Shown here: positions 130-52,917 of the stretch, piece by piece | Numbering within the stretch: position 1 is the stretch's first letter | Layout: the number at the start of each line of letters is the position of its first letter | From: Sycon ciliatum | Lineage: Eukaryota > Porifera > Calcarea > Leucosolenida > Sycettidae | Reading direction: 5' to 3' | Assembly: GCF_964019385.1 (NCBI RefSeq) | Contig: NC_088653.1 | Span: forward strand, 9,706,790-9,770,789 | DNA: 64,000 nucleotides | Notes under the pieces: model-generated | Told to the model about the DNA's origin: nothing | Database searches by the model: none | What the model saw: only the letters and a program-made list of their open reading frames with translations | Program-made: the position numbers and the translations under genes

Positions 130-3100
130 GTGAGTGCAAGAACGCGCTCCTTCGCTGATTTATTTCGTGCATTTTGCTTACCTTGCTTCCTTTCTTCGAC
201 TCGCTTCACCTGATTCCATTGCTGACATTTTTTTCTTGTGGCAGAGAGTATTCATGTATCATGCTTCCTCACTATGTCTGTTTGAAATTTCACAGAGCGG
301 TAAAAAACTCCTGTTCTTAGTGGCGAAAGATAAGCGACAATTGCGATGAGCCGGACGAAGTACATAGTAATTGTTAAAAATGGATGAAGTTTCGTTTTCA
401 ATCCGTGCATATGGTAAAAAGTCGTCTGTACTTTCAATACGTTTCACAAAGCTATCACCGACTCATTCGATGTCCACCATCCTAGTGTTGAAAGTAGCAA
501 GAATCTTTATAGATTCATTTCCTGCTTGTGTTTAAATTCAGGCAAGTACATGTGTGCAGTGGATGCCGCTTTCCGAAAGAACCATATAGCATGTGGACAA
601 GCTGATCTTCTCATTTACATTGTCCGATTCATAAAAATATTCATCTCCACTTAAGAAATGTGCTCCTCACATACTTTACTGTCAAACAGATGAACACTGC
701 CAACTATGGAGCATTATCATCTTCACAGCCTTTAAGGAAAAGTTGCCTTCAATACTTATATCCAGTAATTATTATTCTTTACTAAGAAAATGGTGGGCAT
801 CACGCAACTGCGTTATAAAGGAAAGGGGGTTTATCAACTGACAACCCCTCTATTCAGTTGCTATTCACAGTGAGTGGCCCGAAACGTCACAATTTTTTGA
901 CGTCACTAATACAGAATTTTCATCCAGCGCATGCGCCAAGTGTGAATAGCAACTGCATAAAGTGGTTGTAAGTTCACGAGCCCCCTATTCTTTAATTGTT
1001 GTGCTTGTGTGAATGAAGCTGAAGACACCACTGCAGCTGTACTTATGGTTGATAAATATGGTGGTAAAGACACACCTGGCAATATGGCGGTAAACACACG
1101 CCTGCCCACACACGCTCCCTAGGCTGCAAAGTTCTGGCACAGAGCTCTCCTTCTCACCACCACCACCATCAGTTCGCGCCTGGCGCCTGGTCGATGCATG
1201 GCTGGCGGTATCCGGCATAGCAGGCTGGTACATCAAGTAGCGCATGGTACATAGATGATGACACAGCAACGATATAGCTTGATTGCGATGTACGTTTCGT
1301 CCCCGCTGGACTCATCAGGCAATCTTCTTCTTGGATGTCTTCATACGGAGCTTGACTCGGAGCTTGACTCATATTTATCAACCATAAGTACAGCTGCAGT
1401 GGTGTCTTCAGCTTCATTCTCCCGAGTCAAGCTCCGTATGAAGACATCCAAGAAGAAGATTGCCTGATGAGTCCAGCGGGGACGAAACGTACGTCGCAAT
1501 CGAGCTATGTCGTTGCTGTGTCATCATCTATGTGCCATGCGCTACTTGATGTACCAGCCTGCTTTGCCGGATACCGCCAGCCATGCATCGACCAGGCGCC
1601 AGGCGCGAACTGATGGTGGTGGTGGTGAGAAGGAGAGCTCTGTGCCAGAACTTTGCAGCCTAGAGAGCGTGTGTGGGCAGGCGTGTGTTTACCGCCATAT
1701 TGCCAGGTGTGTCTTTACCACCATATTTATCAACCATGTTGTTCTTGTGTGTATTATATATACGCAGACTTACCTTCAGCTGGAGGAATTTTATTCCGAA
1801 GGCCAAGTGGACGCTAACACTCTAGTTGTTCTAGTTAGCGGGGAACAACTTGTTGGGAAGTCGACACTGATCAAGACATTGAGAGAAGAAGGAAACAACG
1901 GCACATCAAACGACTCGAAACGAACCCGAGGCATCCAGATGTCCAACTTCACTGATAATCTTGGTCAGCATTTGCGTATCAAAGATCTCGCTGGGCAGGA
2001 CGCGTTTTCAGCGACACACGACATTTTCTGCCTATCCACATCAGTACCAAGCCTCGGTCTTGCTGTTGTCAATAGTAAATGGGACGAGAAACTGATTACA
2101 ACAAGCATAACCACCACAGTTGGTCGGTTTTTGAGCCGGAGGCCACCATCGGTAACATCAGGTCAGTGCGATATTTTCTCAAATGCATTTTTGTGAAATT
2201 TTGTTTGTGTCTGTTGATCCGTATGTCGGCATGTACTGTAGCAGACATGGAAATTCAGTTGTTTGACCAGGGCCGGCGCCCTCAGCGCGAACAGAACGCT
2301 GCGTGCAGTGCACATGTTGATCCGATACGACCAGCGCTCTGCAGAGCATAAATACATGTGTGTTCCGCTTGTCCATGGCCGCATGGCGAGTGCCCTGGGG
2401 CCGCTAGAAGTGTGACCGGATTTCCATGTCCACGACACTACATGAATGAATGAATGATAGGGGTATGTGTTTGATTCTGTTTACTGGTGCAGGGAGGGCA
2501 CTGTGTGTGTGCATGCAGGTATGTGTGTGTGTGCATGCAGGTGTGTGTGTGTGTGTGTTTATGTGTGTGTGTTATTTATAGTGGTGTGCATGGGTAGTCG
2601 GATACGCATGCAGCCCGTGAGGATCTCGTGTAGACGGGTACAGAATAGTACCTGAAAACCCGAAGTCGCTGATGGCATCATGTACAGTGCACATGTACAA
2701 ATTCATGTAGTACTCTGCATGTCTATCCAGTGTGTAAGGGAAGGAGTGCATTGTGCTGTCACCATGGAAACATTACCCAATAGGGTATCCGTGCTACCCG
2801 TGGAAAACTACCCAAACCCGATCCCTGAAGAAAATGCTACCTGACTCAGCCCTAGATATTCATCTCTCTGTCCATGGTAAATGCCTGTAATAAGTCCTTG
2901 GGTTGAAACATTGGTGAAGGTCGAGCACATGTGCGTCAATATGGGCCCGGGAGCGTATGTGGTCCCGGCGATATTTTGGATACGTGAAATCAGACTGTTT
3001 TTCACATGAACGAACAGTTTTATTCACAAGTGCTGTGCACTACACTGTACACTGTACTAACGAATTGTTACTGCACATCAAGCTGAACATGCACTGCCCC

Positions 3101-12100: not shown

Positions 12101-15100
12101 AAATGTCTACTTCACACTATCTTGCAACACAACTTGATCCATGGGCTTGCTCAGGTCTCAAAGAGAACTTCTGTTTGCATGGGATTCTATACGACAAAAT
12201 GAATTATTTTCTCTGTGGATAATGAACACATGACTGGTTAGGTATGTGTTATGCTAACCTTGATGATTTGATACCCATTCCTATAATCGAATACTTCTGC
12301 ACAGAGACAGGGATAGTTTTAAAATCTGTTTTCTGTTTTTTCCTGTTGAATGTATCAGGCCATGCTGAGCATCACGCTGGTCATGGAAGCTGTGGGATTT
12401 TCCTATCCACTTCACCACTGTAAGTTCTACGCATGTATTACTCAACAATGAAGTATAGAACCGTTGAATCAGTCCTAGGTAAAGTTCAGTGAAATGTACT
12501 GCACCATTTCCAACATAATGAGTCATCCCGGCCCAGTGAGTGAGTTCTCAGACCATGATTGTGCAATGACAGGTATATGTATCATGATCAAGTCCTGACT
12601 TGAAGAGGATTGCTTCAATTGTGCTGTACACCACAGTGAGTTGGGAACACGAGGTGTGGAAAACAGGGCAACATTGATGCAGAAAGTGGGTTTTCACCTT
12701 TGCCCATATACTGTAATTGGTGGATCTGAATTTTCCTCTCCATCCGTAAAAAAGCGGCATCTGACGCCTTTGCATGTGGTCTTTTCATGTGGTCTTTTCA
12801 TGTGGTATTTTCATGTGGCGGTGTCGTCATCCCTAGAAACCAGAAAGGTCTTATTGAGCTGTGTAGTTCCCAGATCCTCTTTAAAACACATTTCCCTATT
12901 TGAAGTACATAATCAGAAGAAAGTAGAGATTGCAGATACGCAACCAAATCGCCTATGCAATTGTGTTGAGAAACACAACCAGTTTAGGAAGTTTTGCTTG
13001 TACAAGGCCACCACCATGCCTGAGATACCAGGGTGGCAGATGTAGCACGTGACAGCAAGGGTAACTTAGTATCAAAAGCAATGCCTGACAAGTTGCAAAC
13101 CTTGTTAGCTGCATCTATGTTACCCTCACTACGAATACAGTGTAGTGAGTACACAGTTAACAGTGGTTGTCAGAGCAGTTAACTGGATGTAAAGTGGTTC
13201 ACGCTTGCATCACAGCATTTGTTAACAAAGTACATGCTCACTGGTGTCAGCACTGGTCTTGAACTCAGACCCTTGGGATTTGCAGGCAAGCCCACAACCA
13301 CTCGGCCAAAGTACTGGTCAGTAGGCAGTGGCAATAATTTCCCTACACTGCTTGCTTAATGAAATGACCACTTTTTCGCCCAACCACGTTTTTTTGAAGG
13401 CCCTGCAAGGCTGCATCGCCTACACCAGGGAGTCGTAGGGGGTCGTACGACTTCCTGGCTTGCACCAGGGAGCCCTACGCGTAACACATGCGAGTGTACG
13501 TGCATATAGGGCTACCGGTATGGCCTACGACCATGTACACTGTGTGATGCGCATCCCCGGACGCTTTTCGCTTGCACGCCTTCGCTGATCCGCTGCTTTT
13601 TGTGTTCCACTTTTTCCAAAGAATTCTCGTAGTTGTGTGTCTTTTTCTCTCTGATTGCTGCTTGTGTGGACACCATGGAGGCTCATCAGCCTCGGAACTT
13701 TGCTTTTCCAAAGCGAAGTTTCGGGCGAACATCGATCGTTGAGCGTCCGTTTCAACCAGCTTGGTTCGATAAATTCAACTGGTTGCACTACGAGTCGACG
13801 GATTCTGTGACCTGCCATTTGTGTTCCTTTGCTGATCAGCAAGGGAAGCTGAAAGCGCCATCGAAGGACTCGGCCTTCATTTCTAAGGGCTTCAAGAATT
13901 GGAAAGATGCCACGGAGGGGTTCCGCCGTCACGAAAAGTCGCTGTGTCATATCGACGCTGTCCAGGTGATTCTTGTGCTACCGCAGACTGTCCCGGACGT
14001 TGGTGAGGCGCTAAGTCAAGCCCATGCCAAGGAGAAAGCCCTGAATCGGCGAATGTTCGTCAGAATCCTAGAGAACATGAAGTTTTTGGGTCGCCAAGGT
14101 CTTCCCTTGCGTGGCCACGGCGATGCAGAGTCGAACTTTATGCAACTGCTGCAACTACAGAAGCTACATACTCCCGAGTTGCGTGCCTGGCTGGAGCGAC
14201 GAGTGTATAAGTACTGCTCCCCCGAAATCCAGAACGAAATCATTCAGCTAATGTCGCATAGCATACTCCGGAATGTGGCCAAGTCCATCCATACTGCTGA
14301 GGTGTTCAGCGTAATGGCCGATGAGTGCGCAGATGTATCTTACAAGGAACAGCTGGCGTTGTGCTTCCGGTGGGTTGACCAGGAGTTGGAAGCTCATGAA
14401 GATTTCGTTGGTTTGTGCCAGATTGACAACATATCTGCAGATACGCTCGTTGCGGCTATCCGGGACTGCATGCTGCGACTCAACCTCCAACCGACTCAAC
14501 TGTTGCCGAGGCCAATGCTACGACGGTGCCACAAATATGGCTGGTCACAGATCTGGTGTCGCGAAGCAGTTGGGAGATGAAGAGCCAAGGGCTAATTTTG
14601 TGCACTGCTACGGGCACTCTCTGAACCTGGCAATGTGCGACACCATCAAGACGACTGTGCTGACCAGAGATTCCCTCGATGTCACCTGCGAGATCAGCAA
14701 GTTAATTAAGTACTCGCAAAAACGAAATGCCCGGTTTGACGTCCTGAAGGGTGAGATCTCGCCCTACACACCAGGATTCCGTGTGCTGTGCCCGACCCGC
14801 TGGACAGTTCGAGGCAAGAGTCTGCAAAGCATCCTGAATAACTATCTGGTCTTGCAAGAACTGTGGGATGAAGTTCTGGCTGGGAGTGTGGACCCCGACG
14901 TGCGTGCTCGCGTAATCGGAGTGAAGGCTCAAATGGAGACTTTCAACTCCATCTTTGGAATCAGTTTGGCCCGTCTTGTCCTGGCACATGGTGACAACCT
15001 TTCTGTTTCCCTCCAGAGTTCAACAATGTTTGCTGCCGAAGCCCAGAAAATAGCACGTTTGACGGTGGACACAATCACAAAGATGAGCACAGAGAATTCA

Positions 15101-18100
15101 TTCTCGATGTTCTGGGAGGCTACTGTGGCAAAAAGTCACCAGTTTGATGTCTCTGAACCGCAGTTCCCTCGCAAACGCAAACGTCCACAGAGGTATGAAG
15201 GTGGAGATGAGCCAGCATACCACCCCAGCTCCCCGGAAGGCCGCTATCGGCAGCTGTATTATGAAGTGCTTGACAGTGCCAAGTCCTCCATCCAGACCCG
15301 GTTTAATCAGAAGGGATTCGCCATATACACGCAGATGGAGAACCTTCTCTTGAAGAGTGCCAAAGGGGTGGACGCTACAGACGAGTTCAAGGCAGTGACA
15401 GAGTTGTACGGCGAGGATCTCGACTCCAACCTCCTTCTGACCCAGTTTTCCCTCCTTCAGACGCAGCTGACCTCTGATGACGATGTCACGTTTAGGTCTG
15501 TGCTGAAGTTCTTGTGGGGCTACTCCACATCTCAGAGGCAGCTTCTGTCTGAAGTTGTGAAGCTGGTGCGCTTGATTCTGGTAAGCCCAGCTCCGAACGC
15601 TATCAGCGAGAGATCCTTCTCAGCAATACGGAGAATCAAGACCTATCTCCGCTCCACAATGGGCCAGAGTCGGTTAAATTCAGTCATGCTCCTCCAGACG
15701 CACAAGGACAGGACAGATGCACTGTCTGTGGTGTAGTTGGGCAATGCCTTCGTCGATGTCACCAGCAGTGATCACCGCCGCTCAATATTTGGCACATTCA
15801 CGGATGCTGATCTTTCAGCTTAGTAACCCAGCTAGCAGTTTGCCTGTGATTGCTCTTCTTGTCTTATTTCCGCGGCTTTGGCTTTCGTACACAGCAGCGG
15901 GACCATGCACAGTAATAAATATTATACTTATTGTTTCAATGCATATTGTACGCCATCTGACACATATTATTATTTCTTGCCTGCATTTCTTTTCCTCGCT
16001 AGTTTTGCTGAGAGTTTTTGTACACCTATTCAATGGTGGATGAGATAACAGGCTTTAAATGCTGTCCATAGTTGTTTTCTTGGAAATAGTAAAACAATGC
16101 CAAAGGTGCCCAGAATGCAGGATTTTGCACCCTAATTTCAAAATATTTCCGGGGGAAGATCCCCCCCCAAGAACCCCCCCCCCCCCCTGGCCAGACCACC
16201 GCCAACGGCGGTGCTACGCGCCTGGGTAAAATGTGTAACTGCGTGCAGAAGTGTAGGCAGTGGTGCAGGCAGTAGTGCAGGCAGAAGTGTAGGCAGTAGT
16301 GTAGGCAGTAGTGTAGGCAGTAATGTAGGCAGTAGTGTAGGCAGAAGTGTAGGCAGTAGTGTAGGCAGTAGTGTAGGCAGAAGTGTAGGCAGTAGTGTAG
16401 GCAGTAGTGTAGGCAGTAGTGTAGGCAGTAGTGTAGGCAGTAGTGTAGGCAGTAGTGTAGGCAGTAGTGTAGGCAGTAGTGCAGGCAGTAGTGTAGGCAG
16501 AAGTGTAGGCAGTAGTGTAGGCAGTAGTGTAGGCAGTAGTGTAGGCAGTAGTGTAGGCAGTAGTGTAGGCAGTAGTGTAGGCAGTAGTGTAGGCAGTAGT
16601 GCAGGCAGTAGTGTAGGCAGTAGTGTAGGCAGTAGTGCAGGCAGTAGTGTAGGCAGTAGTGTAGGCAGTAGTGTAGGCAGTAGTGTAGGCAGTAGTGTAG
16701 GCAGTAGTGCAAGCAGTAGTGTAGGCAGTAGTGCAGGCAGTAGTGTAGGCAGTAGTGTAGGTACTAGTGTAGGTAGTTGTGAGGAGTGGGGGCAGGACTG
16801 AGCAGCGTTGGAGGGAGTGGCGCTGCGAAGGACTAAAGGGACCATCACTTAATTTTTGCCGACTACCCGCCAAAAATATCTTTTCGTTTTACGTGTCAGA
16901 CAATTGTGTAGTAGTGTAGGCAGAAGTGTAGGCAGTAGTGTAGGCAGTAGTGTAGGCAGTAGTGTAGGCAGTAGTGCAGGCAGTAGTGTAGGCAGTAGTG
17001 TAGGCAGTAGTGTAGGCAGTAGTGTAGGCAGTAGTGCAAGCAGTAGTGTAGGCAGTAGTGTAGGCAGAAGTGTAGGCAGTAGTGTAGGCAGTAGTGTAGG
17101 CAGTAGTGTAGGCAGTAGTGTAGGCAGTAGTGTAGGCAGTAGTGTAGGCAGTAGTGTAGGCAGTAGTGCAGGCAGTAGTGTAGGCAGAAGTGTAGGCAGT
17201 AGTGTAGGCAGTAGTGTAGGCAGTAGTGTAGGCAGTAGTGTAGGCAGTAGTGTAGGCAGTAGTGTAGGCAGTAGTGTAGGCAGTAGTGCAGGCAGTAGTG
17301 TAGGCAGTAGTGTAGGCAGTAGTGCAGGCAGTAGTGTAGGCAGTAGTGTAGGCAGTAGTGTAGGCAGTAGTGTAGGCAGTAGTGTAGGCAGTAGTGCAAG
17401 CAGTAGTGTAGGCAGTAGTGCAGGCAGTAGTGTAGGTACTAGTGTAGGTAGTTGTGAGGAGTGGGGCAGGACTGAGCAGCGTTGGAGGGAGTGGCGCTGC
17501 GAAGGACTAAAGGGACCATCACTTAATTTTTGCCGACTACCCGCCAAAAATATCTTTTCGTTTTACGTGTCAGACAATTCCGCGTGCGCCTACGATCACG
17601 ACTAGCGACTACGTAGTCGACTCGCTACCTTTCACGTCAAGCAATCTGTTCACGCCACGTGGCTGGATATCGATAGCGCGTACAAGCAAACAATACATGA
17701 TTGAAGACTTGCAAATTATTTTTAATTTTTACAAGTCCAGCTAGGCGCTAGGCCGAGCTGCTACTGAGTCTGTTGTGAGAGTACTGACTCTTTACTCAGT
17801 AATGGCAGTTGACTTGATTTTCGGAGAAACACTACTGGAGTGTCATTGTACAGTAGTAAAAAGTAACAATGAATGGCGATAGCATCTTGGAAGGATCGCT
17901 ACCCTAACGTGAAGGAAAGGCCTTGCGCGGCTGCTCTACGAAGTGTTGAAGAAAGACTCAAAGTTAGTTGCGGGACGAACAACTCGCTGGTGCCTGAAAA
18001 CTACTGAATTGGCCCCCAACGATGGTAACTTGGTGTTTGGTGAATCATCAAGCATAGTGTCTTGTAGCAGTGTTCACCGAGGAAGGAGAACGCTCTAGCC

Positions 18101-22900: not shown

Positions 22901-25900
22901 GTCAGTCCACTGCCGCTCGCCAAGATGATGCTGGTAAAGTTGAATGTTCTCAATACACCATGTGTGCTCCCTGTATGCTAGTGTTAGTTTACTTGTGTGC
23001 AAATGTCTACTTCACACTATCTTGCAACACAACTTGAGCCTCTAGATCGGAAAAGAGGCTTTTTTCTATTTTTGGTGTTTTGTATTGTATTGATATATTT
23101 GAATTGGGTATCTCAACACTACAATAAGTACAACTTGGGAACATCCACGCTTATGTCGTTTCACGCAGTACTGAGAAAATGCATTTTAAAGTTGTGTTTT
23201 CCGCATAAAGTGATGTATAACTCACTTTTTGCCAGCTAACTGGCCTCTCTGCGTACACCCCAGACACACCCACACACAACAGAAAGATACAGATCACAGT
23301 AGTAGTGTGGTCTTTGTTCACTCACGGTGGAAGATGGAAGAGCTTAGCGTAGTGTATAGATGAGCATGAAGAAGGGCATGCCACCTCACACATATACATG
23401 TACACATATGTACCAGACCAACATAATGCAAAAAGTGAACCACTGTGGCGAATAGGGCCGCCGGATAATTAACCAGCCCGAAGCTGGCGGAAAAAAACCT
23501 CGGGACCCCGGCGGAGGCACAACTCTGAGGAAAAAACTGGTTAGAATAACCCCATAAGATAAATGAACAAAACGTAGCCTGCAGGACCTATCTCGAAGTG
23601 AGAATAAAGGGGAGGGCGGGTGGGAAACTACAGCGAAAAGAGAAAGACCACGATGAAGAGAAAAGTTTGAGAACACTGACAAAAAAACAGCTGACGCAAT
23701 CCTGATGCCGTAACTATGATGAAAATGCTGGCAAAAAAATACATTTTTCGTTTCATTCGCTACGCTCAGCCAACGAAAAATACCACTTTTTGCCAGCTAG
23801 CTGGCCTCTGCGTACACCACAGACACACCCACACACAACAGAAAGATACAGATCACAGTAGTAGTGTGGTTTTTGTTCACTCACGACGGAAAGGATAGCC
23901 GACCCGACAGTCACTGGTGCAGTGTAGCGCGAGACACTGACAGCATGTCCTTGAGGGAATCCTACACATACACGTTCTTACATGTGGATGACTTCCAACC
24001 CCCTTGCCCCTGAACAAGGCGCTCTGGCACGCCAGCATTGGCCGCTGCCGTCGCTCCCCCCGAGCGGAGACTGTGCATGCCATACCTTGTGGGGTCTTCA
24101 CCTACGCGGGCGAGAGCTGTGTGGATCAATTCGCGCGCCCGGGCGTATGTCATCTTTCCCCGCAGACATGACTGGTGGGTTGCTGCGGAGACCTTGCCAA
24201 AGAGAGGTTGAGTGGGTACATGCCGTGCTCTCTCCATGAAACCCTCTATGGCCGACACAGGACATGGTGTAGTAGCCTGCTGCTCCAGTCGGCTCACCAT
24301 GACCACATCGCCCTGGCGCAACTGGTCGTTCTTGCGTTGTCGCAGGTGGAGGGACATATGCGTGACGCAAATGGAGATATCCTGAGGCGTGAGGCGTTGT
24401 AAATTGTCCCAGCGAAGCAGAGCAGTGAAGCCGAGGACAAGCAACGCTGCGGTTTGCCAGTCCTGCAACGGGGCGGTAGGGATAGCCAGTGTGGCGACGA
24501 CCTTGTTGAACACCACCGACCTCAAGGGTGAGCGGCGATTGATTGGTCGGGCACAAAGACGTCTTGCAGCAGTGAGCAATTGTCTCACCACGGTATGTTG
24601 TGGGGATCCTGCCAATCCGCCTTACAATGCGCCCAGTGCAATGCCGCCACAAATTGGTTTATTGGCCCCATGGTACACTGTGACTGCAAAACTTGACGAT
24701 GTATAAGCACACGCTGGTGGGTGCCGCTGGGAATGACGTAACTTGACACGGTACGGTCCACTTTTCCCATCAGTGTAACGCGAGCTGGTACGCAGACGCA
24801 GTGGAGCTAGCAACATCCTTCCAAGTCACTGTCCTTAGCAGGTCCGCCAGAGGTTTCAGGGACGGTTGTGTCACAGCGTCCACCTCGACCCAGAACGCGA
24901 ACGGGCCTGACAAGAATGACACAAGGAGAAGCAAAATAGGCAGAAACACGCAACCCAGTCAGCAAAAAAACAACAACAACCATGGGTCCTCATTAATGGC
25001 CATCGTAAACGAGTCCCATGCATGATAGCATGATAGCAGCTCATTCCGTAGGCTTCCGAGCCACAAACAAACCCGACCCAGCAGACAACAGCATCCCGTA
25101 ACACATTGTCCCCTTGGGCAAACACATGCACAACCTAACCACCCAAGTGGGGATGACCAACCCGCTCCCAGGGAGCTCCAGGCCTGCCTCTCACTGGCAT
25201 GCAGATAACCCAGTGTCCCGTCGCACATTGTCCCCTTCGGAAAACACATGCAGAACCTGCCCACCAGGTGGGAATGACACACACGCTCCCAGGGAGCTCA
25301 CGCTCTGCCTCCCATAGGCATGCAGATCACCAAGTGTTGCACACCTTTGCTCCCAGGGAGCCTCACACAAACATGCATGCCCTCCATAGACTGTAGTGAC
25401 AGCACTCCGCTAGCACCCATTTGCGCATAGGATCAAGCCCAGCCCATATAAATCTACACCATTGCTTTCCAAGACAAGAAAAAATCCAATAACTATGCCT
25501 CCTCCAAGTCAAATGTGAACATAAAGCACTCGGACTGAAATAACTGGGGAATAACACGAAGATCTTCAAAAGAGAAACGCATATCAGCTAGGAATTGATT
25601 AACATACCGCAGATAAATATTAGGCGCAGCTTCCCATTTTTCATTGGAACAACACCCAAAGGACTGACCACAACTAAGCTGGCCAGTGGGGCTTCCTCAA
25701 CGGCACCCGACAAACATAAATCCCGGATATTGGAGGACACAAACTCAGCATGGGAGATAACAGCAAGGGGAATTACAGATGACCTTTGGAGGAGGAAGGG
25801 CAGTGAAACACAAAAAATATCCACACCCAATAATCCTCAATACATACTCTGACACGCCAATACCACACCAAAAACTAACACAAGGCTTAAGCCGCCCGTG

Positions 25901-28900: not shown

Positions 28901-31900
28901 AAGACGTCCTTTCTCTAAGCCATCTTGGTCATTTTTCTCAATCCGCTGGTGGGTGTCGACCACTATATTATGTCCGTGAGGTACTGGTGAACTGGAGTCC
29001 TGGCATCTACAAGAATTTGCCGCGCCTAGCTAACCAATGTTGTCTGTAGAACTCAGCATTTCCTGATTGCGACTCGGCACACCCTTTTCTGTTTGGCCTC
29101 GCAGCTTTCACGCTGCGAGTGGGGAGTTTTCTGGCCACAAATGAATCCCTTAGTCATGACCATGATGAGAGGTGACTGGTATGATCCCTGACTGGCACGA
29201 GTCCTTAGCTTGAGTCAACACGAAGGTAAACTCTTCACTTGGAACGCTTGCTGTCGCCTCCGTCCTTTCTTGTTGCACTTCCCGATATGCGCAAGGCTGC
29301 CAGTTTTTGTTGGTGCGCGCGGCGACGCACGGCCGACCTTGATATCTTCAAAAAGTAGACCATCGGTTCTCCTTGGCCGATTTTCACCATCGATAGCTCA
29401 TTTTCAAGGTCTTGGAATTCTCTATCGGTTTACCGTCCCTGGTTTCTAATTTTCTCTTCATTCACTTGTTTGCACGCCTTCGCGTTTGAGTGATTTAACC
29501 ATCCGATCTCAGCCAAACGAAGGCAAAATCGAAAAATTCGAGACGGTAACCCTCCAAAGACACACTTTCTGAACACGAATCCACAATCGCCTAATGTCTA
29601 AAACCAACGAATACAGCCAAGTTCCACTCAGAAAACACCCCACAATTGCAAGAAACAGCCCGTTTTGCCATGCGCTGAATGGTCAAATCCAAATGACTGT
29701 TATTGGCGCTTTGTACGGTCGTGGTGAGCCCTGACAGTGTAGTCAGTAGCCAGTTAACCGTGGTTGTCAGAGCAGTTAACTGCATGTAAAGTGGTTCACG
29801 CTTGCATCACAGCATATGTTAAGACAGTACACGCTCACTGGTGTCAGCACTGGTCTTGAACTCAGAACCTTGGGATTCGCAGGAAAGCCCACAACCACTC
29901 GACCAAAGTGCTGGTCAGTAGGCAGTAGCAATAATTTCCCTACACTGTTTGTTTAATAACATGTTTTGCAAAAACTCACTTCAGCATATTGTGGTGAGTG
30001 CATGAACGGGTGTACTGCCTAAAGCCTAGTGTGAGGTAAAGTGTGTGAAGAGAACTGCGGGCAGTAGTGTAGGCAGTGGTGTAGGCAGTAGTGTAGGCAG
30101 TAGTGTAGGCAGTAGTGCTGGCAGTAGTGTAGGCAATAGTGTAGGCAGTAGTGTAGGCAGTAGTGTAGGCAGTAGTGTAGGCGGTAGTGTAGGCAGTAGT
30201 GTAGGCAGTAGTGTAGGCAGTAGTGTGGGCAGTAGTGCAGGCAGTAGTGTGGGCAGTAGTGTAGGCAGTAGTGTAGGCAGTAGTGCAGGCAGTAGTGTGG
30301 GCAGTAGTGTAGGCAGTAGTGTAGGCAGTAGTGTAGGCAGTATTGTAGGCAGTAGGGTAGGCAGTAGTGTAGGCAGTAGTGCAGGCAGTAGTGTAGGCAG
30401 TAGTGTAGGCAGTAGTGTAGGCAGTAGTGTAGGCAGTAATGCAGGCAGTAGTGCAGGCAGTAGTGCAGGCAGTAGTGTAGGCAGTAGTGTAGGCAGTAGT
30501 GTAGGCAGTAGTGCAGGCAGTAGTGTAGGCAGTAGTGTAGGCAGTAGTGTAGGCAGTAGTGTAGGCAGTAGTGTAGGCAGTAGTGCAGGCAGTAGTGTAG
30601 GCAGTAGTCTAGGCAGTAGTGTAGGCAGTAGTGTAGGCAGTAGTGTAGGCAGTAGTGTAGGCAGTAGTGTAGGCAGTAGTGTAGGCAGTAGTGTAGGCAG
30701 TAGTGTAGGCATTAGTGTAGGCAGTAGTGTAGGCAGTAGTGTAGGCAGTAGTGTAGGCAGTAGTGTGGGCAGTAGTGTGGGCAGTAGTGTAGGCAGTAGT
30801 GTAGGCAGTAGTGTAGGCAGTAGTGCAGGCAGTAGTGCAGGCAGTAGTGTAGGCAGTAGTGTAGGCAGTAGTGTAGGCAGTAGTGCAGGCAGTAGTGTAG
30901 GCAGTAGTGTAGGCAGTAATGCAGGCAGTAGTGCAGGCAGTAGTGTAGGCAGTAGTGTAGGCAGTAGTGTAGGCAGTAGTGCAGGCGGTAGTGCAGGCAG
31001 TAGTGTAGGCAGTAGTGTAGGCAGTAGTCTAGGCAGTAGTGTAGGCAGTAGTGTAGGCAGTAGTGTAGGCAGTAGTGTAGGCAGTAGTGTAGGCAGTAGT
31101 GTAGGCAGTAGTGTAGGCAGTAGTGTAGGCAGTAGTGTAGGCAGTAGTGCAGGCAGTAGTGTAGGCAGTAGTGTAGGCAGTAGTGTAGGCAGTGGTGCAG
31201 GCAGTAGTGCAGGCAGTAGTGTAGGCAGCACTGAAGAGTTTAGGCAGAAGTGTGGGCAGAATTGTAGGTGGCAATCATAATAATAATAATAATACGGGTC
31301 GCATGTCTCCCAGATAATGGATTCCACGCATCTGTCAACTGTTTCACCATGAAATAGATTGCAGCAGGAAGAATAGCAGACGAAAAAAACCATATACAGG
31401 TTCTAGCACATGACAAGTACATGCCATTTTTTTCACCGATGTACATTTGTCAATGAAGTCCAGCCATAGCTTTTTGTCCCGTGCAGTGTTGAGGCAATCC
31501 TCGAGCGTGTGTCCGAGAGGGGAGATGTCGGATTTCACCACTAGTCGGTAGTGCGGGCAAATGTAGGCAGTAATGCGGGCAGAAGTGTATGCAGTAGTGC
31601 GGGCAGGACTGATGAGTGCGGGCAAGACTGGGGAGTGCGGGCAGGACTGAGGAGTGCGGGTAGAACTGATCAGCGTTGGAGGAATTGTGGGAAGGAGTGC
31701 CGGAAGGAGTGTGATCAGGCATGCGAGCCGAGAAGTGCGGGGAGGAGTATAGGCAAGAGTGCGAGCATGATTGTGTTCAGGAATGTTGGCAGGAGTGTGG
31801 GCAGTAGTGCGGTCAGGACTGCGCGCAGAAAAGTGTGGGAAGGGGAGCGTGGGCAAAAAATGTGCGGACAAGAGTGTGGGCAGGCGTTTGGGCGGTGGGA

Positions 31901-52440: not shown

Positions 52441-52604
52441 ATAGCATGTGTGTCTGTGTTCGTTGAACACAGGGCTCTAGGGTGTCCTAGCGATCCTCCT
52501 GATTCCATAAACTTAGTGATCATTGTGATTTCATGTGCTTTGAAGTTGAATTCGCAATACATGTACTGATGCTTGATTAGATTTATGTTCCACATGTTCC
52601 CAAT

Positions 52605-52652
52605 GCTGTAGACAGCAAGCTGTTTCGGCCATAAAGGCCTCATCAGTACAGC
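52605..52652 (-). ncRNA. Hammerhead ribozyme 1 of retrozyme dimer
   Basis: Minus strand: GCTGTA (stem I), CTGATGA, stem II GGCC-TTTAT-GGCC, GAAA, stem III CAGC-TT-GCTG, TC, then TACAGC, a perfect closing of stem I. All core residues present. Predicted cleavage between 52,611 and 52,610. Confidence 0.92.
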
Positions 52653-52844
52653 TACGAGCTAAATAGGCCGAGCTACCAGCCATGGTGCAAAGGAGGCACC
52701 ACAGACATTTAAAAGGTAGCTCGTCGCTCTAGCGCCAGAGTGCTCAAACTACAAAAAGTAGCGGGCATTGCGCGATGCAGCAGCACTAGAGCAGCCTACT
52801 GAGAGTGCTCAACAAGGCGAAAGCCGGGGAGCGTAATACCCAAT

Positions 52845-52892
52845 GCTGTAGACAGCAAGCTGTTTCGGCCATAAAGGCCTCATCAGTACAGC
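52845..52892 (-). ncRNA. Hammerhead ribozyme 2 of retrozyme dimer
   Basis: Base-for-base the same as the 52,605 ribozyme. Predicted cleavage between 52,851 and 52,850, giving a 240-nt monomer with the first site. Confidence 0.92.
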
Positions 52893-52917
52893 TACGAGCT
52901 AAATAGTCCACATGTTC

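Follow-up and report, generated by a model that had tools for sequence, protein, structure and literature searches.

The 307-bp insertion at 52600–52906 of the window (the 64,000-nt stretch of Sycon ciliatum DNA analyzed here) belongs to a retrozyme family, family 1, in which a fixed start of copying, a variable 5′ end and target-site duplications (TSDs) are present in many copies. Judged on its sequence, it is a non-autonomous, non-coding member of the metazoan non-LTR retrozymes described in passages of Cervera and de la Pena (2020, PMC7229834). The best explanation of the whole, in which we have good confidence, is that such a retrozyme would pass through an RNA circle and be inserted by target-primed reverse transcription from a fixed start, by an enzyme supplied in trans that is most likely Penelope-like.

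The segment 52589–52917 of the window corresponds to positions 9759378–9759706 of contig C12 in a searched genome of 538 Mb (313 contigs). An independent repeat search found in it a direct repeat of 71 nt (52599–52669 and 52839–52909; 240 bp spacing, 99% identical) whose element part is identical in both copies, and showed the insertion to be one monomer repeated incompletely in tandem. Both hammerheads carry, on the minus strand, the complete motif GCTGTA-CTGATGA-GGCC..GGCC-GAAA-CAGC..GCTG-TC^TACAGC, with stems I (GCUGUA/UACAGC), II (GGCC/GGCC) and III (ACAGC/GCUGU). Stem I is the open stem, and the hammerheads are therefore of type I. The features are the following:

52600..52906, minus strand: family 1 retrozyme copy, 1.28 units of a 240-nt monomer with two complete hammerheads (repeat search and motif reading)
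52589..52599, no strand: left copy of the TSD, TCCACATGTTC (exact match to the right copy)
52907..52917, no strand: right copy of the TSD, TCCACATGTTC (exact match to the left copy)
52845..52892, minus strand: type I hammerhead 1, 5′ on the transcript, predicted cut 52851/52850 (motif and three stems; below the Rfam gathering score)
52605..52652, minus strand: type I hammerhead 2, predicted cut 52611/52610 (motif and three stems; below the Rfam gathering score)
52611..52850, minus strand: predicted 240-nt RNA freed by both cuts, to be circularised (positions of the predicted cuts)
52599..52610, minus strand: TACAGCATTGGG, the stretch from the ribozyme cut to the fixed point where reverse transcription begins, 3′ end of the inserted copy (ends of copies)

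Position 52599 could be a TSD base or the last G of the element, which makes the latter 307 or 308 bp long. A preliminary description of this DNA had proposed two identical hammerheads with full core and three stems, in the same orientation and 240 bp apart, within an 11-bp target duplication; the repeat search and a strict scan returned the same coordinates, and TCCACATGTTC is exact at both places. The retrozyme identity, minus strand and 240-nt unit that it had deduced are borne out by the complete motifs and the two predicted cuts. It had also called the element compact, which describes no special feature, since passages of PMC7229834 give 170–400 nt as ordinary for animal retrozymes.

The window copy is non-coding (longest stop-free run of 60 codons in a tripled monomer), and the monomer GC content is 52.9% for family 1 and 49.6% for family 2, described below. 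Folded as a circle, the 240-nt unit has a minimum free energy of −84.6 (z −2.5; 4 of 200 shuffles as low). Separately, the minimum-free-energy fold was dropped as evidence, the native hammerhead fold being absent from it and lying about 3 kcal/mol above the minimum; also dropped was the fold of a 65-nt stretch, no better than chance (z −1.2).

A strict scan for the motif with three stems found three full motifs in the 64-kb window (the family 1 pair plus a further one at +1464), whereas 60 shuffles had none, which rules out a chance motif. The preliminary description had suggested a covariance search with the type I hammerhead model, and this did not yield the call: at the gathering score, Rfam left the family 1 pair of the window uncalled. 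At a lax threshold, the pair scored 25.9 bits with the type III model (cut-off 48.5) and 21.3 with RAGATH-1 (cut-off 56.3); type I is missing from this listing because Rfam places it in one clan with type III, and a clan is represented only by its best match. Since the gathering scan misses the element, its identity rests on motif, covariation and relatives. Seven hammerheads hand-picked from families 1 and 2 of the same genome were aligned. Double-sided changes occur at 5 of 15 stem pairs: stem I has three and stem II two, and stem III is without any. One of the five depends on the decayed copy L067. Of the alignment cells, 97.9% pair, versus 24–46% in slid versions. The stems thus covary, and selection seems to keep cleavage.

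A DNA search of the sponge's own genome returned at least 89 matches at 89–100% identity (best 40 of 1321 candidates scored). We sampled 40 array loci, the window copy and 39 others fetched from among the matches listed. The monomer is 237 nt long in 65 of 76 full units (window's unit counted), making the window's 240 nt a rare length, and the window monomer is on average 97.8% identical to 75 full units. The exact word CTGTCTACAGCATTGGG, which spans the cut site and the next 12 nt, occurs at 745 places genome-wide, and its reversed control at none. Of the 94 exact places on contig C1, 65 lack another one within 260 bp (mutated neighbours uncounted). The largest arrays hold up to about six units. 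A head-to-head arrangement was seen at one fetched locus only (L015, at 88%).

Over the whole unit, divergence is 0.9% within arrays versus 1.8% between them; four arrays exceed this between-array mean internally (L009, 4.8%; L035, 3.8%; L028, 3.1%; L042, 3.0%). At three columns, selected for common variants, array uniformity was 25/25, 30/31 and 32/35, against 9.6, 19.0 and 14.6 expected when units are shuffled between arrays. The recent mobility put forward in the preliminary description is supported for the family, given the high identity among units, the low divergence of arrays and the exact TSDs, but the window copy alone is undatable, as its 67-bp halves are too short.

Some units are mosaics. 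In L020 (around 539) and L038 (around 574), family 1 and family 2 are joined inside one unit at short shared words, and the L009 array has mixed alleles and a subfamily switch within a unit. These three loci need either template switching or recombination; template switching is probable.

When copies are read on the ribozyme strand, they stop at a common point, ...CTGTC^TACAGCATTGGG, followed by foreign DNA. By hand count, the exit from the monomer is at GGG, or inside a TA(T) common to monomer and target, in 39 of the 40 array loci; the remaining one, L039, runs on to monomer position 138. TA comes next in 36 of these 39 exits, the exceptions being the window copy (GAACATGTGGA), L036 and L043. 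The preliminary description had called for a genome search for further copies with target duplications, and these were found: an exact TSD of at least 9 bp (9–17 bp) flanks 23 of the 40 array loci, and none of at least 8 bp the other 17. Nine TSDs are made of simple repeats, and the flanks of L047 are those of L046; without these ten, 13 TSDs were left, and in 12 of them the TA after GGG is part of both TSD copies.

A similarity search ranks arrays high, and we therefore also sampled ten places without neighbours, hand-picked from the listed exact CTGTCTACAGCATTGGG matches and spread over contig C1, all on the plus strand. All ten exit at the common point of family 1, into TA (seven), CA (two) or GA (one). 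Insert length ranges from about 20 to 250 nt; an exact TSD of 7–13 bp flanks five of the ten, two of these TSDs measuring just 7 bp.

Genome-wide, the next monomer (TATYACGC) follows directly at 152 of the 745 CTGTCTACAGCATTGGG places, and the other 593 end 12–14 nt past the ribozyme cut; the latter number is somewhat too high, as a continuing monomer mutated within TATYACGC is scored as an end. TA comes next at 607 of the 745 places and at 455 (77%) of the 593 non-continuing ones, leaving 138 without it; the share of TA among dinucleotides of the window is 5.5%. The 5′ ends of family 1 copies are scattered. An apparent hotspot (12 of 34 loci starting in monomer 173–190; scan P 0.0002; L013, L020, L023, L038, L039 and L047 of the 40 loci omitted from the count) was set aside, the sample having been ranked, and thereby biased, by similarity to a query that contains the 307-bp element. 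A mid-monomer word has 403 exact places and the 3′ word 745, a difference that agrees with 5′ truncation; we give this count little weight because it includes a cluster on C1 (15.1–15.3 Mb) without the 3′ word.

A fixed 3′ end, scattered 5′ ends and short TSDs together are the mark of target-primed reverse transcription. Reverse transcription begins on the 3′ side of the cut and reads across it, which excludes the cut linear monomer as template. The template must have been continuous over the cut site, as in a circle or an uncut multimer, and a circular template is strongly suggested. One circle copied repeatedly explains most arrays simply, and so would the transcript of a uniform array.

The same end rule holds in a second family. 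An Rfam type I search of the genome returned at least 72 matches (best 74 of 76236 candidates scored), and most of the 30 loci cut out from it are family 2, with a 226-nt monomer and hammerhead variants; one long array lies on contig C189. Family 2 copies end 11 nt past their own cut, at CGCAGATTGAG followed by TA. Exact TSDs flank at least 5 of 22 loci (L050, L051, L053, L057 and L062), and exits into AA, CA or GA occur at L052, L054, L055, L058 and L059. The 3′ end of L068 (about 1505–1545) lies exactly at the ribozyme cut (CTGTC, then AGATAGAT...), as if cut linear RNA had served as template. Loci L072–L077 were rejected as independent insertions: they are a dispersed repeat of more than 2.6 kb with an old family 2 insertion in a fixed place, and frames are listed in three of them.

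A third family lies near the start of the window:

1011..1737, no strand: family 3 retrozyme with a 352-nt monomer, a head-to-head inverted copy (Rfam, inverted-repeat search and motif scan)
1458–1501, plus strand: family 3 hammerhead, the sole Rfam match above cut-off in the window
about 1281–1324, minus strand: mirror hammerhead of family 3 with one change in stem III (motif reading)
998..1010, no strand: left TSD of family 3, GTTGTGCTTGTGT (12/13 match with 1738–1750)
1738..1750, no strand: right TSD of family 3, GTTGTTCTTGTGT (12/13 match with 998–1010)

The TSD register was set by eye, and none of 2000 shuffles was as good at that register. The plus-strand hammerhead sits in one arm of a 316-nt inverted repeat. 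A genome search with family 3 gave at least 140 matches, most at 97–100% (best 40 of 1145 candidates scored). Forty loci among the matches listed comprise 9 single, 7 one-orientation and 24 two-orientation loci. In all 24 of the last group minus units precede plus units from left to right, and the reverse order was seen in none; three C12 loci (window included) and two C8 loci look like mutual copies, and hence at most about 21 head-to-head loci are independent. Two of five "single" loci that were read, L120 and L121, are minus-then-plus as well. In 20 of the 24 two-orientation loci, the two outer units extend as far as the final 8 bases of the query 3′ end, and many cut-short units are central in the array.

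Twelve outer 3′ ends were readable: five stop at monomer 242–243, six about 31–37 nt further, and one (L126 left) at neither place. Family 3 thus has two start sites, about 35 nt apart. The window copy, with its 13-bp TSD carrying one mismatch, has one outer end of each kind; among the 24 two-orientation loci, it and L126 are those whose outer ends were read. It would seem from this arrangement that family 3 is copied from both ends of the break, the two copies meeting mid-way.

A plus-strand frame at 1471–2196 has a GTPase match (MMR_HSR1 above the cut-off, Roc just below). Its upstream part crosses the retrozyme, so that the insertion may be intronic in a host gene. The window also contains a remnant of a hAT-type transposase at 13633–15736 (plus strand; two overlapping frames; Pfam DUF4371 and Dimer_Tnp_hAT), a tyrosine recombinase frame at 23962–24621 (minus strand; Pfam Phage_integrase), possibly of a DIRS-like element, and long minisatellites at 16026–17605 and 29976–31402 with several open frames on both strands (LPTLL, CLHY and SSVG repeats).

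We also looked in the genome for Penelope-like elements. A search for GIY-YIG gave at least 150 matches from 944 candidates and many Penelope-like elements, in which stop-free frames of 902 aa stand head to tail about every 2935 bp. The one array that was read matches reverse transcriptase (E 3.6e-5) and GIY-YIG (E 1.4e-4), both just below the Pfam curated cut-offs. The 229 bp between two such frames hold, by eye, a hammerhead-like core (CTGATGA..GCCGAAAC); Rfam, at E up to 1, returned no hammerhead in that stretch. Among 15 copies shown of one Penelope family, P2, ten end about 78 nt past the hammerhead-like core (several of these near-identical duplicates), four about 39 nt further (about 117 nt), and one earlier. 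In family 1 and in P2 alike, reverse transcription is thus seen to start at a fixed internal place beyond the hammerhead. The main P2 end has no preference for TA. An alignment search of retrozyme start regions against Penelope repeats gave no significant similarity, the sole match with E below 1 being the hammerhead core. A tail common to family 3 and P2 was considered and rejected: the two look alike by eye, and the alignment search does not support it.

According to passages of PMC11167929, the Penelope protein starts internally at two sites and, at AT-rich targets, cuts and extends both strands; parts of PMC3846280 describe rotifer Penelope-like elements with head-to-head repeats, TSDs of 8–10 bp and an optional tail. 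The choice of start site and the head-to-head order make a Penelope reading good for family 3. For family 1 this reading is likely and less certain, because start distance and target preference are unlike those of P2. Neither a second start site nor head-to-head copies were seen as a rule in family 1. Penelope-type machinery is the likeliest mobiliser on the sequence evidence. We give roughly even chances to a broader proposal, that animal retrozymes are satellites of Penelope: the Penelope protein would open both target strands and prime on the circular RNA beside the ligated junction, at one end (family 1) or at both ends with a second template (family 3). If so, the hammerhead has two roles: it makes the RNA circle as a ribozyme, and it provides the surroundings in which copying starts.

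For family 1, the route would be as follows. Read-through transcription of the minus strand would produce an RNA with two hammerheads; both would cut themselves, freeing the 240-nt RNA, and a host ligase would close it into a circle, as the anatomy and passages of PMC7229834 suggest. A reverse transcriptase/endonuclease acting in trans, most likely from a Penelope-like element, would open AT-rich DNA, usually at a site beginning with TA. Copying would start at a fixed place on the RNA, 11–12 nt past the ligated junction on the 3′ side of stem I, and would run round the circle to a variable extent, often far less than one turn and sometimes one to six (1.28 for the window copy). Joining of the variable 5′ end would leave a TSD of about 9–17 bp.

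The enzyme could instead be the reverse transcriptase of a LINE (non-LTR) element, mobilizing the retrozyme in the manner of a SINE by ordinary target-primed reverse transcription. The fixed 3′ end, 5′ truncation and TSD length fit LINE insertion equally well, and LINE enzymes use short primer-template pairing of the UA/TA kind, which counts in favor of such an enzyme. LINEs are also named beside Penelope-like elements in passages of PMC7229834 and PMC11722881. We nevertheless consider a LINE enzyme rather unlikely in view of family 3: a head-to-head order in which each outer end has a start site, and a choice between two start sites, are marks of Penelope (PMC11167929, PMC3846280, both in part).

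More doubtful is a template consisting of the uncut multimeric transcript of a genomic array, with no role for the ribozyme in insertion. Such a transcript carries the start site too, and a uniform parent array would give uniform copies; moreover, as reported in sections of PMC11167929, the Anolis Penelope protein inserts uncut RNA in vitro, and hammerhead mutants leave insertion unchanged. Against it, the covarying stems indicate that cleavage is seemingly under selection, arrays of up to about six units would demand transcripts with as many uncut ribozymes, and many copies are single, as the isolated exact places on C1 show. A further alternative is plain satellite DNA that multiplied through unequal crossing-over and segmental duplication and whose hammerhead is a relic or arose by chance. 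It would suit the tandem monomers, the long family 2 array on C189 and the common flanks of L046 and L047, and is very improbable given the exact TSDs of unrelated targets around arrays and single copies, the single 3′ end common to 593 of the 745 copies and the compensatory changes in two of three hammerhead stems.

The closest known counterparts of family 1 are the non-LTR retrozymes of other animals. Cervera and de la Pena (2020), in the parts of PMC7229834 that bear on this, described the kind (220–245 nt in Acropora, 350–390 nt in Mytilus, 331/353 nt in axolotl), suggested that a primed circle is the template and put Penelope-like elements forward as a strong candidate. Like family 1, the elements in those passages carry a type I hammerhead per monomer, form non-coding dimers to multimers of 170–400-nt units, have TSDs longer than 4 bp and co-exist with Penelope-like elements; family 1 differs in being a distinct sequence family and in its monomer GC of 53%, versus a reported tendency below 50%. 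In passages of the main text of PMC7229834 we found neither head-to-head arrays nor 5′ truncation, TA targets or a constant starting point of reverse transcription, and searches of one open-licence library, preprints excluded, yielded no report of a fixed start site or of head-to-head retrozyme arrays. The kind of element is therefore already known, and what is new here is the insertion record, which is unusually legible. The return of retrozymes to DNA, its template and its enzyme are treated as hypothesis in passages of PMC7229834, PMC7761336 and PMC11722881. With three families with fixed starts, several hundred insertions and long Penelope-like frames in one genome, the question becomes open to direct test.

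Plant LTR retrozymes share with family 1 the tandem hammerheads and a life cycle with circular RNA (PMC4918200, PMC7229834 and PMC7761336, in part). They differ in having a type III hammerhead, LTRs with a primer-binding site and a polypurine tract, and a 4-bp TSD (PMC7229834 and PMC7761336, in part), whereas in the window copy stem I is open and the TSD is 11 bp. Penelope-like elements (Anolis PAc, PMC11167929; Adineta vaga Pen, PMC3846280; passages of each) have a hammerhead in the terminal repeat, tandem copies and an internal start of reverse transcription past the hammerhead, together with AT-rich targets, TSDs of 8–10 bp, head-to-head repeats and an optional tail of 30–40 bp. The same passages have them encoding a reverse transcriptase and a GIY-YIG endonuclease, whereas family 1 encodes nothing and starts 11–12 nt past the cut. 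That start, with a TA target and 5′ truncation, and in one family head-to-head arrays, gives a diagnostic that can be applied to the retrozymes of corals, mussels and axolotl.
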